This document shows positions 1,266-61,900 of a stretch of DNA of 64,000 bases, in pieces. Each line of letters opens with the position of its first letter. Within the stretch, counting starts at the first letter, position 1. Both the position numbers and the translations under genes were made by a program. The notes under the pieces were generated by a model. That model saw only the letters and a program-made list of their open reading frames with translations, was not told the origin of the DNA and did not search any database. This stretch comes from Watersipora subatra (lineage: Eukaryota > Bryozoa > Gymnolaemata > Cheilostomatida > Watersiporidae): positions 6,696,001 through 6,760,000 of the forward strand of contig NC_088711.1 of the NCBI RefSeq assembly GCF_963576615.1. The letters run 5' to 3'.

Positions 1266-6912
<5,647 letters not shown>

Positions 6913-14966: not shown

Positions 14967-30610
<15,644 letters not shown>

Positions 30611-44572: not shown

Positions 44573-47500
44573 AAACTGTATGATTGACCTTGACATATAT
44601 ATACCAAACTGTATGATGATAATCATTATGTTTTTCGATGCTGCATATTTGACAGGCAAGAGTGGTTGTAGACCTTTAAATACTCTCAGTGTGCCGCTTG
44701 CTTAAAACAATGTTGGCGTGAGATGCTTTTGATCAGATGTACCAATCCTAAGTGTTCTTGTTTAACTTCTGACCATTTTACCCGAGCCTTCTCAAAGACT
44801 GAAAGATTTACATTCTCAGTGAACTGCGTTCTTCCCTAATATAAAAGTTAACATACTTCATGGCAAAAGTGGCCATATCATACCTCATGATAACAGTAAT
44901 CTTACCTTGTGATAGCAGTATTCATACCTCATAATAATAGTATTCATACCTCATGGTAGCAGTATCCATACCACATGATAACAGCATGCATACCTCATGA
45001 TAACAGTATTCATACTAAATGATAGCAGTATTCATATCTCATAATAATAGTATTCATACCTCATGGTAGCAGTATTCATACCACATGATAACAGCATGCA
45101 TACCTCATGATAACAGTATTCATACTGAATGATACCTCATACATTCATACCTCATGATTACGGCAGTCATGGGAGTCTTTAGAGCAGCTACGAAGAAGCA
45201 GATGGCGAATACTAATACCATGAATGGAACAAGGGTACGACATATATTATCACAAGGCCCTCTCGTTGCATAGCTAGTGAGTCCCTGGCTCATCTTCTCC
45301 TCATATCCGACAGTTTCTTCAATGCATCTGCAACTCTGTACAAGAATGTCTTCAATATTTTATCATTTCTACAAAACAAACTCGTAACCAAGATGATTAC
45401 AAAAATGTACATAACATATTTTAAAAGGCTGTAGATGGGTTTGTGGCTGACTGCTCGCTGCAATCAGTCATATTTGAGGCACTATTGAACATCTCAAGTA
45501 TGTGATAAGATGTCTATGTTGGAACACATGATACAATTGTAACAGCTATAAGCAGCTATAACCTTTATACCAACCTCAGCAGTACTGTTTGCTGTAAATC
45601 TGCAGCCAGCATGACAGGCACTGAAGTAAGTTAAGGAGTTATGTCCACATACTGGATTATATACATAGTCAGTACATCTGCAGTCGGAGTTGCACCGCCT
45701 TGTCAGGTTTGCAGAATAAGATTCAACATTCAACTCTACTATTGACTCCCAACTGTAAAAGCAATTTCAGTGAACTTTTTTAATAAATGTAATACAGTGA
45801 TATATTATAAGCGTTTTAAATAACAGGTAGAAAGACATACCTTAAGCCGCCTCTGCTTAGGCGATAGGGAGAAGTTATACCCGCAATTGCAGTATTATTA
45901 CATCCGATAAAAAAAGCCAAAGAGAAACAGGCTAAGCCCAAGATACTTAGAATCACTGTCAGTCCAAGGGCACCTAAAAATAATACATTGTGATGTTTGT
46001 TACAAAGCTACCAAAGTTTTTGAATAACGACAAGGACTACTACAAAGATTGCTAAATAAGCTGCAATGAAAATCGATATACTGTATCCATATTGATAAAC
46101 CTGCTCAATAAGCTCATGGTTTAAACTATCAGACTGACTGAGTACCACAAATGACTGGTAATAAACAGTTCTACAGTTTTAACATTAAAACACATCTATT
46201 ACGATCTGCTGTTTTACTTCAGTAAAACAAACACAAGAACTACAAGAACACAAGAACAAGGGATAGGAAGTGGTGGAGAACCATGACCACCCATGTCCTC
46301 ACAAGGCGTGATACTGAGAGAAAGAGAAAACAAACACAGAAATATAAAAATATTTATACAATATATGATATTAAAGGTGAGTGGGTATAGTAAAAATTCT
46401 TTACCTTTGATAGACAATCTCATCCTTTGAAGTATAACTCCGGAGCTGAGAATACCGAGGACAGCACCTGGAATGGCCAGCGACCCTGCAATGCCATACC
46501 TTATATTACAAATGGTTTGGTACATGCAACAGCTGAGCTGTATCGGCCATCGCTGTATGAAACTGAAACTATGCTACATACTGCTACAAGAAGCCTTAAG
46601 GAAATAGCAAAACCATTTCCATTATGATGTTAGTTAGGGATTTGAAAATTTGTCACAGATGGTGCATGCCTAGGAACTTCAGTTTGTTAAATTTTTAGAG
46701 CAATGAATATGTTCGGTACTAAAAATGCTACTACACGCTGTTATGCACAGCAGATGATATGTAATATACGTATAGAGTAAACGCCTGTGAATTTGCTTCT
46801 GGTCAGTTTCTTGGCTAATAAAGTGATAAAACAAGTTACCATTTACTAGAAAAGATTTATATATTATTACGGCTTGTTGACAGCAATTGTAATCATGATG
46901 CAGCTACGATAAAGCATTTGATAAATAGTTTACAGTGAATTTTAATTGCAACTTATAGAATTATGAAAATGAAAAAGTTATTTTATATTGCAGTCATTTT
47001 TATAAATTACTTGCTAATGTGTAATATGCTTTTTAATTAGATAGTTGCTGTGTTATTTATATGTATGTACACACATATAAAACTATAACATGAATTTGAA
47101 ACAGCTTGAAACTGTAAATCGTTTAATATTCATTAAAGCAAAATGATGCTTTAACAAATGCAATACAATTGTTTATGCATCCAACTTTTCAATATTTTAC
47201 ATTTTATGATGAATAGCCCGAGATCAAGGCTGACTTATCAGCTACTAGGCTATTGTGTACTTTTACAAAAAAGTGACGCAATCACCGTTTTGAATAACAG
47301 AATAAAACCTAAAAGCAGCAATAACATTTATGAAATATTTAAAGATATTTTCCAGCCCCAATAATCAGAAGTCTAGTGGCTTGTTTGACTCATAGATACC
47401 TGTATAAAGGTCACAGATACCTGTATAAAGGTCACAGATACCTGTATAAAAGTCACAGATACCTGTATAAAGGTCACAGATACCTGTATAAAGGTCGCAG

Positions 47501-49717
47501 ATACCGTATAAAGGTCACAGATACCTGTATAAAGGTTCACAGATACCTGTATAAAGGTCACAGATACCTGTATAAAGGTCGCAGATACCGTATAAAGGTC
47601 ACAGATACCTGTATAAAGGTCACTGATACCTGTATAAAGGTTCACAGATACCTGTATAAAGGTCACAGATACCTGTATAAAGGTCACTGATACCTGTATA
47701 AAGGTTGGCCTCACTAGTCCTCAATTGGAACTGAGTTTCCAAGTATTTTGGCATGAATGTGAGGAAGCCAGTCACTATGATCATCTCAAGAACGGTGGTA
47801 ACCATGAGCAGCATGTAGATTGGATTCCTTAACAGCTTCATCAGCGCCTTGGGAAATTCTAAAAAAACGTTTCACTATTGGGTGACGGCAGCATTCCTGT
47901 GGAAACAGCAAAGATATGTATATATCATCAATAAAGACAACCAAGGAACATACAGACAGATATCAGACTGATGCAGACTAAACATTCACTAAACTATTTT
48001 GTCATATTGTGCCACTCTGTCTACGATTGATTAAACTCTACTAGCCTGTGATTGTGTGTTTTCTTTTCAACACTGTGGATGCTCTCTCCGCCTTTCCGCG
48101 CTGAAGATTTACTTGTGTTGAGTTCCCAGCCACTCCGATGTCATCAAAACTTTCTAGTTCCATGTCATCATTCTTGGGCGGAGTAGAAAGTGATTTTGGA
48201 AAAGTGAAAAATGGCAGAGCCGAAAGCATAATCAAGCTGCCGAATATAAGAAAACCAACCCACCAGGCGCCGACCCACTGCGGGTCTGACGGCGTCAGGG
48301 TTGGGGCTATTTCAGAAAGGCTGGCAAAATCAACATAAATTTCGGTCAGGGCTGCGCCGGCACCGAATCCTAGCACCGGTCCGAGAGTAGAGGCAGCATA
48401 GACAAAAGCTACAAATAAGTAGAGTGTTCTAACTACCCACTTTGCTATATGCGAGTACAGTATACTAAGACTCATATTTTGCTTTGCATAAGCTGAAATC
48501 CCCCAGACTTCAAATCAATGAGGGAGTTGAAAGTACTTAGAGAGAATGTGGTAACTAGCCCAATACAATACAACGCTGTCATTCAAACTAGTTAATCTAC
48601 TAAAGCTTAGCTGCAAATGAGAACAAGTTGCATTATGTAATATTATGTTATATTATGTTATATTATGTTATATTATGAACATGAATCTTTACTATATTCT
48701 TCTTTACTATAATAAGAACAGTGTTCATCCATCCGTCTGAAGCCGTGCTAGGAATGTTAGGAAAAAAGATTTCACCACATGGGAATCAAACCCAGATACT
48801 CGCATTCCCAACCAAGCGCGCTACCACTTCCCAACTCAATGGCCTGTCCATATCTATGAATAATTGTGTACATGGTTATTACACATGACAATCTCTCATG
48901 GCACATGGGACTGTCAGCGTACTAGAATATATAAGTATATATATATATATTATAATTATACAATATATATATATTATAACATGATAGTGTGCAGAGTTGA
49001 TAACTCTGTATACTCACCGATGTACTGAGGAGACTTTTTCCTCGTAACGTGATTGTCAATATAGGATAGAGCGATAGTAAGAATAGGGGTGCTGCCAACT
49101 CCAATTACTGTTTGAGCAGCAATAAATATGACGATGTAGAGTTCTGACCCAGTTTTGATTAGATCAGTTTTGCACGCTTCTTCCAAAACTGGAGTAACCT
49201 TTGACGTTTGTAGACAGGTGTCGCCTATAGTGTCGTTACGTTTTTGAGGTAGAAATATAGAGTATGCCGGTACTATAAAGTGCGGTAGGGAAAATAAACA
49301 AGCACCCATACCTACTAGCAAACTTCCTAGACCGATTACTACCGGAATGTTTTTATTATTCCCTGCATAGCTAACAAATATCACCGCTATAGTCGCTCCT
49401 ATCTCATAGGAGCCCACGATCAGTCCAGTTATCGAGCTGCTAAACTCAAACCTGCGCTCAATGCTCGTGATAATGCTCGGCAAATAGCTAGCAGATATAG
49501 AGCCATTTACACAGCTGAGAATGCATATAAGAATGGTGAAAAGTCGAATGTTAGCACAGGTTTGCATGCACCGAGGCTGACAAGCGCCTACTCCACAAAT
49601 ATATTGCATTCTATCATCTCCTAGGGACTGCTTGCTGCGAAGGGAATTCACACACTTTTTTGCTTCTTCTTTATCATTGGAAGAAAGTGCAGACAACTCA
49701 TCAGAAGAGGCGTCCAT
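42246..49717 (-). CDS. Solute carrier organic anion transporter (SLCO/OATP family), 10 coding exons, 720 aa
   Basis: Twelve-span plasma-membrane transporter for amphipathic organic anions. Exons: 49018-49717, 48046-48408, 47694-47858, 46405-46485, 45841-45973, 45575-45752, 45151-45335, 43673-43737, 43378-43506, 42246-42409; phases agree throughout. The family signature appears as DPQWVGAWWVGF in exon 2. Exons 6-7 encode the Kazal-like extracellular loop between TM9 and TM10 (CNSDCRCTDYVYNPVCG ... YFSACHAGC ... SCRCIEE). Exon 9 has PVVFGSVIDTTCLWW, and exon 10 the last membrane span and a short tail. The first ATG in frame is at 49717, 11 nt after a TTTTAG acceptor, so an untranslated 5' exon lies upstream. 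The exon 2 donor appears to be GC. The exon 3 donor sits at the edge of a tandem array of itself, and the exon 8 donor is duplicated 45 nt downstream. Subfamily (SLCO1-6) cannot be assigned by eye. Confidence 0.94.
42625..42830. repeat. TA-rich low-complexity tract, SLCO 3' intron region
   Basis: TATAATAT-type sequence with weak self-complementarity, in the last SLCO intron. No terminal structure was found. Confidence 0.7.
44204..44572. repeat. Perfect long hairpin (86-bp arms, 25-nt loop) flanked by (TA)n, SLCO intron 7
   Basis: The left arm 44277-44362 and right arm 44388-44473 are exact reverse complements over 86 bases; the 25-nt loop repeats part of the arm (GATGCAGTAATCATCAGATG). A (TA) tract at 44204-44280 precedes it, and another at 44527-44572 follows after about 50 bp. 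The absence of any mismatch indicates a recent inverted duplication or recent insertion. It lies in an intron of the transcribed SLCO gene, so its pre-mRNA can fold into a long duplex. Confidence 0.9.
44885..45170. repeat. Minisatellite, about 22-bp unit, SLCO intron 7
   Basis: About twelve copies of a unit like CATACCTCATGATAACAGTATT, with a 120-bp block duplicated. It runs up to the donor of exon 7 (45145-45150, TCATAC on the plus strand), so the donor itself resembles a repeat unit. Confidence 0.85.
46776..47160 (+). repeat. Dispersed repeat family, copy 1 (SLCO intron 3)
   Basis: Blocks GAGTAAACGCCTGTGAATTT, AGTTTCTTGGC, TTTTTAATTAGATAGTT and a tail ATGAATTTGAAACAG ... GTTTAATATTCATTAAAGCA match 55073-55505 in order. 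No ORF or terminal repeats were seen. Confidence 0.5.
47392..47705 (-). repeat. 21-bp tandem array containing a 5' splice site in almost every unit
   Basis: On the transcribed strand each unit reads ACCTTTATACAGGTATCTGTG. The unit matches the end of SLCO exon 3 (AACCTTTATACAG|GTATCAGTG), so the array looks like tandem copying of the exon end plus donor. About fifteen units are present, two lacking the CA before GG and some carrying one extra base. Confidence 0.9.
48686..48860 (+). mobile_element. tRNA-like repeat with a Helitron-like start (second family), SLCO intron 1
   Basis: Starts A|TCTTTACTATATTC, then ACTATAATAAGAACAGTGTT. On the minus strand a tRNA-like module follows: GGGAAGTGGTAGCGCGC (about 48817-48833) and a clean box B, GGGTTTGATTCCC (48781-48793). 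The far end could not be found. It could be a tRNA-derived SINE on the minus strand with an AT tail, or a second Helitron-like family with the same antisense tRNA-like layout. Confidence 0.5.
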
Positions 49718-58900: not shown

Positions 58901-61900
58901 CAGCAGATATAACGAGTATGTGCTCAATTTATTCCGTAGTATAGCCAGTTGGAAAGTGTGGTGTATTGGATGCCTGAGTGTAGAACTGGAAATTCCAAGT
59001 TCATATCTGGTGTGCAGCAGAGTTTTCATCCCTTAAACTTTCTCTCTACATCTGTACAGACATGAAGATTTATTTATTCACTCCAGCATATGACAGCGTC
59101 GACAGGGCAAATATCAGAATAGAATTACTTTGTATGTCAGGATTTCACTGCAGGCCTAAATACTAATTAAGCTCAAAAAATCCAACAGAGGTCCAACAAT
59201 CGGGTTAAACCGCTACATTTTTCTTTCTGCACATCCCAACTGAGTAAAGAGGCCTACACTTCTATTATGATGCACATCATATTCTCTGGCTAAATGTGAG
59301 TACTTTGAGGAGATTCATACACTGATAATAGAATTGCTGTAGCGATTAAATGCGTAGAATTCAACAAAAAATAATTTATTTGAAGCTCAATTCTTTACAA
59401 ATTTATGTTCATAAATCGTTTAAATTTTGGATCATTTTCATTACACCTCTAGCAATAATCAGAGGTGACTAAAATTTCATCTGGAAATATGAAGACACAA
59501 TAGTGTTTAGACGAACTCTCATCTGACTGAACGCTCTCATCTGACTGAACGCTCTCATCTGACTGAACGCTCTCATCTGACTGAACGCTCTCATCTGACT
59601 GAACGCTCTCATCTGACTGAACGCTCTCATCTGACTGAACGCTCTCACCTGACTGAACGCTCTCATCTGACTGAACGCTCTCATCTGACTGAACGCTCTC
59701 ATCTGACTGAACGCTCTCACCTGACTGAACGCTCTCACCTGACTGAACGCTCTCATCTGACTGAACGCTCTCATCTGACTGAACGCTCTCATCTGACTGA
59801 ACGCTCTCATCTGACTGAACGCTCTCATCTGACTGAACGCTCTCATCTGACTGAACGCTCTCACCTGACTGAACGCTCTCACCTGACTGAACGCTCTCAC
59901 CTGACTGAACGCTCTCATCTGACTGAACACTCTCATCTGACCAACTTTCATGTCCATAACTCCTATCACTGAACATATAGTCTACATTCTAATGATGTCT
60001 CTGAAAACATGTTATAGCCAAGTTTGAGACACACAAGGCTTCAGCATGTACCTGTAGAATCTACTGAATGTGGTATAAGATACAGTATATGTCAGCACAG
60101 CGTCCAAATATGTGTTCTTATTCTGACTTACTAGCTTTCTGAAATACTCTTCTTCCCTGGCAGCCTCTAGCTCTCCAAACGCACCTCCAGCCTTTCGAAT
60201 GGAACCACCACCACCGCCTCCCTACAACACATACAAAAAATTACCAAACATCTGGCATGCAAATATAATAAACAGTTTCCTTGCCAGCAAGACATGTCAA
60301 CAACCAAAGATAACCGGCCAACAAATATGTCATGAGTTCATCATTTCTAAAACCAATTAGCTCCACGATTGAACAACAAATACATAGAATAATGTTTCAA
60401 TAACAAATGTGGGCATTAAGGACTGAGAATGAATGACTGCAGTATATAATATATATCATTCAGTCGTGAAAACAATAATAATATCACATGGCAAATAGAA
60501 TCTAGCTTGCGGCAGAAGACCAGTCCAAGTGTATTTCACTACCTTACCTACTTACATGAGACTTATTTACTTACATGAGACTTATATACTTACATGAGAC
60601 TTACCTACTTACATGAAACTTACCTACTTACACGAGACTTACCTATGACTTACTTACCTACTTACATGAGACTTATTTACTTACATGAGACTTACCTACT
60701 TACATGAGACTTACCCACGACTTACTTACCTACTTACATGAGACTTACTTACTTACATGAGACTTACCTACTTACATGAGACTTACCTACTTACATGAGA
60801 CTTACCTATGTATATGAGACTTACCTACTTACATGAGACTTACCTATGTACATGAGACTTACCTACTTACATGAGACTTACCTATGTATATGAGACTTAC
60901 CTACGTACATGAGACTTACCTACGTACATGAGACTTACCTACGTACATGAGACTTACCTACGTACATGAGACTTACCTACGTACATGAGACTTACCTACT
61001 TACATGAGACTTATTTACCTACATGAGACTTACCTATGACTTACTTACCTACTTACGTGAAACTGATGGTTTTCAACTCCCCACTCCAATCAATCAATGC
61101 AGACTAATATAGAAACATAATATACACACCTATCCATGAAAATTCACAATGGCCCCCTTAATATAAAATCTGCTTCATAATACCTAAATTTGATTACAGG
61201 TAAGTGTGGATGGTTTGCTGGAGTTCCTGTGACTAGCTTAATTTCCTGTAACCAGACATGGCTGCTGAATCTAGGTTTCTAGTTCCTTCTGGTGTACATC
61301 ATTCCACATCACATGCGCAGAATTTTAGCATTTAGCATAGTTTATTATTTTTTACCAAATCAAACAGCACCGAATCGCAATTTTGGCTGACCCAGAAATA
61401 TGAAATTTTCAATTGTGCATGATGTGCACATTTTTGGTATGCACACTCATATGAAGCGCTGCACACGAAAGCATAAAAATTTAACAGAGCCTCACGTAAA
61501 ATTCTCCTGTTCAAAGCATATTAACACATTTGTTCAAAGTGGCAAGCTTAAGAATTAAAATATACGAGACTTGAACGCTTTATTCCTCCAAAAAACATTC
61601 GATGAATACAGGAGTGCGATTTTTTTACCGTAGTCGAAGGAGCGCTTGGTATTTGATGGTTATTTGAAACAATAGTCGAAAACCTCAAAATAATATACTT
61701 TATTTAGCAAAACAGCAAAAAGTAATAACTCACAAAACAATTGTTTAGTAAAATGCATTAGCAATAACAAAAATTGCTATTTGTACTGATAACTATTGAA
61801 AGATTGGAAATTATTCGTTAAAGGTTGACTTGCAACAAAATTCACATTACAGTTATTTGGTATCAAACGATTCACCATGTCTTACTCTGCTGTATTGTAG

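Follow-up and report, generated by a model that had tools for sequence, protein, structure and literature searches.

How does an exon of a transporter gene come to end within a row of near-identical splice donors, and which of these donors would then shape its mRNA? We addressed this question in an SLCO/OATP-type gene on the minus strand of a 64000-nucleotide stretch of the Watersipora subatra genome (C4:6696001-6760000), which is referred to below as the window. From the letters alone, the donor of exon 3 had been described as the first unit of a 21-bp tandem array of donor sites, and this sequence-only reading proved to be correct in nearly every detail of the sequence.

The exon 3 end and its 21-bp array

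The translation of exons 3-6 matches the Pfam OATP profile PF03137 with 143.4 bits (cut-off 25.8, E 1e-41) and also matches Kazal_2 with 26.2 bits (cut-off 22.8), in a Kazal-like loop. A PDB search with the joined exons 1-4 returned 13 distinct sequences, with OATP1C1 as the best match (E 6.3e-62), followed by OATP1B3, 1B1 and 2A1, the matched proteins presumably being human or mammalian. These data support the SLCO/OATP identity proposed from the sequence. Exons were placed by a purpose-made spliced protein-to-genome alignment, in its final version slightly favouring consensus-like donors, which fixed intron 3 firmly and left the exon 1/2 and 2/3 junctions ambiguous; at exon 2/3 the alignment chose AAA/GTTTTG at 48150 (a slash marks the splice site throughout), and a GC donor, CACAG/GCTAGT, near 48047 also fits. 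Exons 4, 5 and 6 continue in frame after exon 3. The features of this region are as follows.

47694..47858, minus strand: exon 3 of the SLCO/OATP-type gene, ...PKYLETQFQLRTSEANLYT/G, ending in phase 1; acceptor TTTTTTTAG/AATTTCCC; from the open frame and the paralog and PDB OATP alignments
47390..47705, minus strand: tandem array, 15 units of 21 bp, beginning with the exon-3 end and its donor; from TRF and unit parsing
46405..46485, minus strand: exon 4, G/SLAIPGAVLGILSSGVILQRMRLSIK; acceptor GGCATTGCAG/GGTCGC; ungapped against OATP1C1 and 1B3; from spliced alignment
45841..45973, minus strand: exon 5, ALGLTVILSILGLACFSLAFFIGCNNTAIAGITSPYRLSRGGL; from spliced alignment and the Pfam OATP and Kazal_2 matches
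starting at 45752, minus strand: Kazal-domain exon, next after exon 5; from spliced alignment and Pfam matches

Read on the minus strand, exon 3 ends in ...AACCTTTATACAG/GTATCAG. TRF assigned the array a period of 21 and 15.0 copies (93% matches, score 558) and, together with unit parsing, confirmed that the exon-3 donor is the first of 15 donor-bearing units. Their GT dinucleotides are at 47693, 47672, 47651, 47629, 47608, 47588, 47567, 47546, 47524, 47504, 47483, 47462, 47441, 47420 and 47399, with spacings on the minus strand of 21,21,22,21,21,20,21,22,21,20,21,21,21,21, i.e. 21 bp in 10 of 14 cases, 22 bp after units 3 and 8 and 20 bp after units 6 and 10. The letters CAG/GTATC are found in 13 of the 15 units and ACG/GTATC in units 6 and 10, each of which is one base short, and every full unit has its CAG/GT after a short CCTTTATA tract. 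Donors 1 and 4 read GTATCA and the remaining donors GTATCT; GTATCAG had thus been given correctly for donor 1, but the copies are not all GTATCTG as had been stated, since donor 4 departs from it.

Of the 14 units downstream, 11 repeat exactly, immediately before the GT, the last 12 or 13 exon bases; one further unit repeats 9 exon bases, and units 6 and 10, each lacking a base, match fewer than six. As the exon-end bases recur exactly in most downstream units, the array is not a product of chance; it is a donor-bearing minisatellite, in that its unit holds a splice donor and its first unit is the exon end itself. In unit 4, 13 exon and 40 intron bases are unchanged, so that 53 bases around the junction occur again at +64, and in view of this recurrence 64 bp on, the copying of the exon end was probably not a single event.

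Two other arrays in the window were noted. The array at 59516-59941 has an 18-bp unit with 98% matches and lies within a 179-codon frame of the minus strand, where it reads (ESVQSD/G)n, the plus strand also being open, and a 2.6-kb array at 25270-27856 consists of 36-bp-based units and is open on both strands over almost 900 codons.

Age of the junction and origin of the array

To place the junction in its gene family, the 784 Mb genome was searched with the PF03137 profile, which found 59 matching places, and 12 paralog models were built by aligning 20 genome stretches, with splicing allowed, to the protein of the window gene. In 10 of these 12 same-genome models an intron is present at the same residue and in the same phase as intron 3, which bears out the claim that donor 1 is the ancestral exon end. 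The two exceptions, one with only an implausible donor at this place (L047) and one with none (C11_858), are both models of degenerate appearance. Seven paralog exon ends located by tblastn read LYIG, LLTG, ILTG (twice), SITG, TYAG and VISG. In addition, the three PDB alignments examined (two with OATP1C1 and one with OATP1B3) show no gap at the exon 3/4 junction, where SEANLYTG SLAIPGAVLG is aligned with SRANFVIG LINIPAVALG, and this ungapped alignment of solved OATPs across the junction further supports donor 1 as ancestral.

TRF detected no array over the donor of the matching intron in any of the ten paralogs, such an array being confined to the window gene. Because the paralogs share the intron without an array over its donor, these data indicate that the junction is old and that the array grew from the exon end. 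In one paralog (L037, 5245-5634) a 35-bp array, unrelated in sequence to that of the window, begins 54 nt into the matching intron, clear of the donor; this intron can therefore collect arrays without involving its donor. The L040 model places two more donors and one acceptor within arrays, but its introns were judged unreliable and were not counted.

A genome search with the 21-bp unit at 0-1 mismatch gave 12 matches, all 12 inside the array. Elsewhere in the genome the unit was not found at 0-2 mismatches, there being no 2-mismatch matches at all, and of the seven 3-mismatch matches one belongs to the array and six lie outside it, compared with three matches of the reversed pattern. With no second locus in this search, the unit was rejected as a dispersed family. 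The same results bear on an origin in the opposite order, with a mobile or dispersed minisatellite present first and later captured as the exon end. Many minisatellites do occur in the region, but the failure to find the unit elsewhere in the genome at 0-2 mismatches, the homology of the exon end with the paralogs and the solved OATPs and the ten paralogs with no array over the donor contradict such an order, and we regard it as scarcely credible.

A second alternative treats the units as paired acceptor and donor sites (...CCTTTATACAG/GTATC), subject to recursive or nested splicing or to removal of small introns between units, as in intron gain by AGGT duplication. The CAG/GT that follows the CCTTTATA tract in every full unit is consistent with this, and tandem duplication of AGGT is a published model for the source of intron ends, at least as outlined in PMC4974935. 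However, the tract is both short and broken, no intron would fit in a single unit, and intron gain of this kind implies an intron that is absent from relatives without the duplication, whereas the intron is present here in 10 of 12 paralog models and is thus ancestral, not gained. We therefore consider paired sites very improbable.

Frames and competition among the donors

Extension of exon 3 into the array on the minus strand brings the following sites into play.

47692..47693, minus strand: GT of donor 1, CAG/GTATCAGT; the ancestral exon end, with intron place and phase common to 10 of 12 paralog models
47671..47672, minus strand: GT of candidate donor 2, CAG/GTATCTGT; +21 nt, in frame, +7 residues
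47650..47651, minus strand: GT of candidate donor 3, CAG/GTATCTGT; +42 nt, in frame, +14 residues
47628..47629, minus strand: GT of candidate donor 4, CAG/GTATCAGT; +64 nt; frame shifted relative to the exon-4 acceptor, which precedes 46485
47620..47622, minus strand: TGA, the first in-frame stop if exon 3 is extended; donors 5-15 lie beyond it

Reading of the frames agrees with the proposal that the donors at 47672 and 47651 add 7 and 14 residues without a shift. The residues added are GISDLYT for donor 2 and GISDLYTGICDLYT for donor 3, and the predicted products with the exon-4 acceptor read ...NLYTGISDLYTGSLAIPG... and ...NLYTGISDLYTGICDLYTGSLAIPG... respectively. Later donors had been said to shift the frame and to meet a stop, and this was likewise found: donor 4 is shifted by the 22-bp spacing after unit 3, and as the TGA at 47622-47620 is the first in-frame stop, donors 5-15 all follow a stop. 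A combination of donor 4 with an acceptor 14 nt upstream (first base 46499) is open and keeps the transporter frame; this acceptor looks poor and the combination was given no weight. What did not stand is the placing of the added residues at the end of a transmembrane segment, since the exon 3/4 junction is, by what we take to be the OATP topology, the start of TM8, where solved OATP1C1 and 1B3 are ungapped. Seven to 14 extra residues where TM8 starts may well serve no function.

The strength of the individual donors was assessed by their computed pairing with U1, of which one copy was read and begins with the canonical ATACTTACCTG. Donors 1 and 4 gave a duplex energy of -7.2 kcal/mol and units 6 and 10 one of -4.4; all eleven remaining units stood at -7.3. 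Donor 1 (GTATCA) is weak at +4 to +6, and the same-intron donors of the ten paralogs gave U1 energies of -5.8 to -12.1, nine of the ten being stronger than donor 1. Computed opening energies were 7.3, 8.8 and 7.7 kcal/mol for donors 1, 2 and 3 (3.4 to 9.6 over all units), so that RNA accessibility computed over the 15 units showed no clear difference by which donor 1 would win. As donors 1, 2 and 3 are nearly alike in U1 pairing, the donors used are not predictable from sequence alone, and since neither energy sets donor 1 clearly apart, the competition is predicted to turn on position and not on strength. Alternative use of donors 2 and 3 is thus possible, but is not favoured by the sequence. 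In the course of this work 42 U1 snRNA matches of near-equal score were listed at C5:45786606-45984104, a span of about 200 kb in which many are about 1.37 kb apart, in what is apparently a tandem U1 array.

In this context, the reading that we consider probable is that an old phase-1 SLCO exon-intron junction was tandemly duplicated with about 12 exon and about 9 intron bases, and that replication slippage or unequal exchange would then have spread the unit to 15 copies into the intron. The ancestral donor 1 would probably still yield most of the mRNA, while donors 2 and 3, which we propose for minority use because they are equal for U1 and keep the frame, most likely give minority transcripts with 7 or 14 more residues. 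Any leakage to donors 4-15 would result in frameshifted or nonsense mRNA.

Donor arrays elsewhere in the genome and in known systems

We also looked across the whole genome for AGGTRAGT words occurring three times at distances of 4-34 nt, a pattern whose matches overlap within arrays and are not counts of arrays. This gave 5462 matches; five control words of equal composition gave 587 (the reversed word), 524, 1095, 1437 and 2404, an excess of 2.3- to 10.4-fold. Single AGGTRAGT words were counted 45 times in 222 kb of gene-rich DNA, compared with 16, 10, 9, 9 and 12 for the controls (approximately 4-fold), and the excess, which at 5462 against 587 might suggest special seeding of donor arrays, can be explained by the abundance of the word itself. 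Donor motifs were not enriched in 56 local minisatellites when compared with shuffled units (P 0.11-0.36 at six thresholds and 0.74 for the mean score).

These counts bear on the possibility that the array is a neutral by-product of a minisatellite-rich genome, in which some arrays must inevitably arise on a splice junction, with donor 1 alone in use and the copies as inert intron. The lack of local enrichment and the abundance of the single word, which makes special seeding unneeded, agree with such a by-product, as does the share of the window taken up by tandem arrays with units of at least 7 bp, namely 14%. Against it, donors 2 and 3 equal donor 1 for U1, and the downstream units of human IFI6, considered below, provide a precedent of use. 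All of the downstream donors could nevertheless be silent, and we treat a neutral by-product as a serious, if somewhat doubtful, alternative to an exon-end duplication with minor use of donors 2 and 3.

Among the matches listed, roughly the first 100 for each search, we distinguished 17 arrays (about 20 more were listed besides) and examined 16, one of which (L061) is array throughout, its start not being visible. In two of the 15 with a readable start, a coding exon end stands at the start of the array.

C1:1460450-1461500, minus strand: DNMT1 exon end as the first unit of a 25-bp array; strong donors AAG/GTGAGT, donor 1 at 1460536
C2:76790670-76790980, minus strand: dynein heavy chain exon end as the first unit of a 29-bp array; strong donors, REIEELLLLWLNCQSK/GTGAGT, donor 1 at 76790738

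The DNMT1 exon (38 residues) has no Pfam match on its own; it matches DNMT1 in PDB (E 3.6e-15), and the exon just upstream matches Pfam DNA_methylase with 53.7 bits (cut-off 22). Up to 22 exon bases are repeated in the 25-bp unit. An earlier piece of intron at this locus contains a 26-bp array that stops shortly before the apparent acceptor of the preceding exon. The dynein exon looks complete and matches Pfam DHC_N2 over all of its 45 residues with 33.0 bits (cut-off 31.9), and found no match in PDB at E 0.1; its 29-bp unit repeats 13 exon bases exactly in units among the matches listed, with one mismatch in the +29 copy. By eye, no coding exon end was seen before the first donor of the other 13 arrays, an inspection in which short or unconserved exons could be missed, and the longer frames before the first donor of two of them (L067 and L064) had no Pfam match. 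One array at C1 ~3480598-3483876 (L063) extends over at least 3 kb of a 28-bp unit, with CAG/GTAAGT in the listed units and no exon seen at its start.

The DNMT1 and dynein heavy chain exon ends are independent cases of the SLCO arrangement. We suggest tentatively that minisatellites may have been born repeatedly on exon-intron junctions in this genome (SLCO, DNMT1, dynein and probably dozens or more), which would give many genes length-variable rows of functional donors; the exon evidence comes from three loci and the genome-wide extent is an extrapolation from them. An exon followed by a row of near-identical donors amounts to a classic splice-competition construct made by nature, and the three arrays, with units of 21, 25 and 29 bp, of which one preserves the frame and two do not, would allow tests of first-donor choice, of leakiness and of selection against units that are not a multiple of three. 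If array length varies, as would be expected of a minisatellite, the number of isoforms could differ between individuals, and if junction-born minisatellites are widespread, splice-site number would evolve rapidly and offer a natural setting in which to study how U1 and exon definition select between identical donors.

The closest known system is human IFI6 (also G1P3 or 6-16), in which Turri, Cuin and Porter reportedly described in 1995 a minisatellite with multiple splice donors. Two downstream repeat units act as donors there and three mRNAs result, according to the outline in PMC4526556. The SLCO array is like that of IFI6 in having donor sites in repeat units at the end of an exon, and differs in gene and organism and in having a 21-bp unit with a weak donor where IFI6 has a 12-bp unit with a strong one, the extra donors being candidates only, whereas the IFI6 units are used. 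In human duplicated genes, too, internal tandem repeats are on record at exon-intron boundaries, and novel introns formed through them (PMC2812944, in outline); such variable repeats resemble the SLCO array in their position and in that they can change splicing, but novel introns are involved there, whereas in SLCO it is an intron of long standing whose own donor has been multiplied. The AGGT duplication model of intron gain, as far as it is outlined, similarly copies splice signals by duplication across a splice boundary, whereas in SLCO no new intron arises and an existing one acquires donors. The CeRep25B minisatellite is found near alternatively spliced regions of Caenorhabditis elegans and, as sketched in PMC4039745, likewise links an intronic minisatellite with splicing choices; unlike the SLCO copies of an exon's own donor, it is a dispersed family and a proposed regulatory motif. 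Beyond these cases, no further donor-array minisatellites were found among the papers listed, judged by title or by the beginning of the abstract. Donor arrays are thus already known as a kind from IFI6, and it is their presence in three genes of one genome that is less expected.
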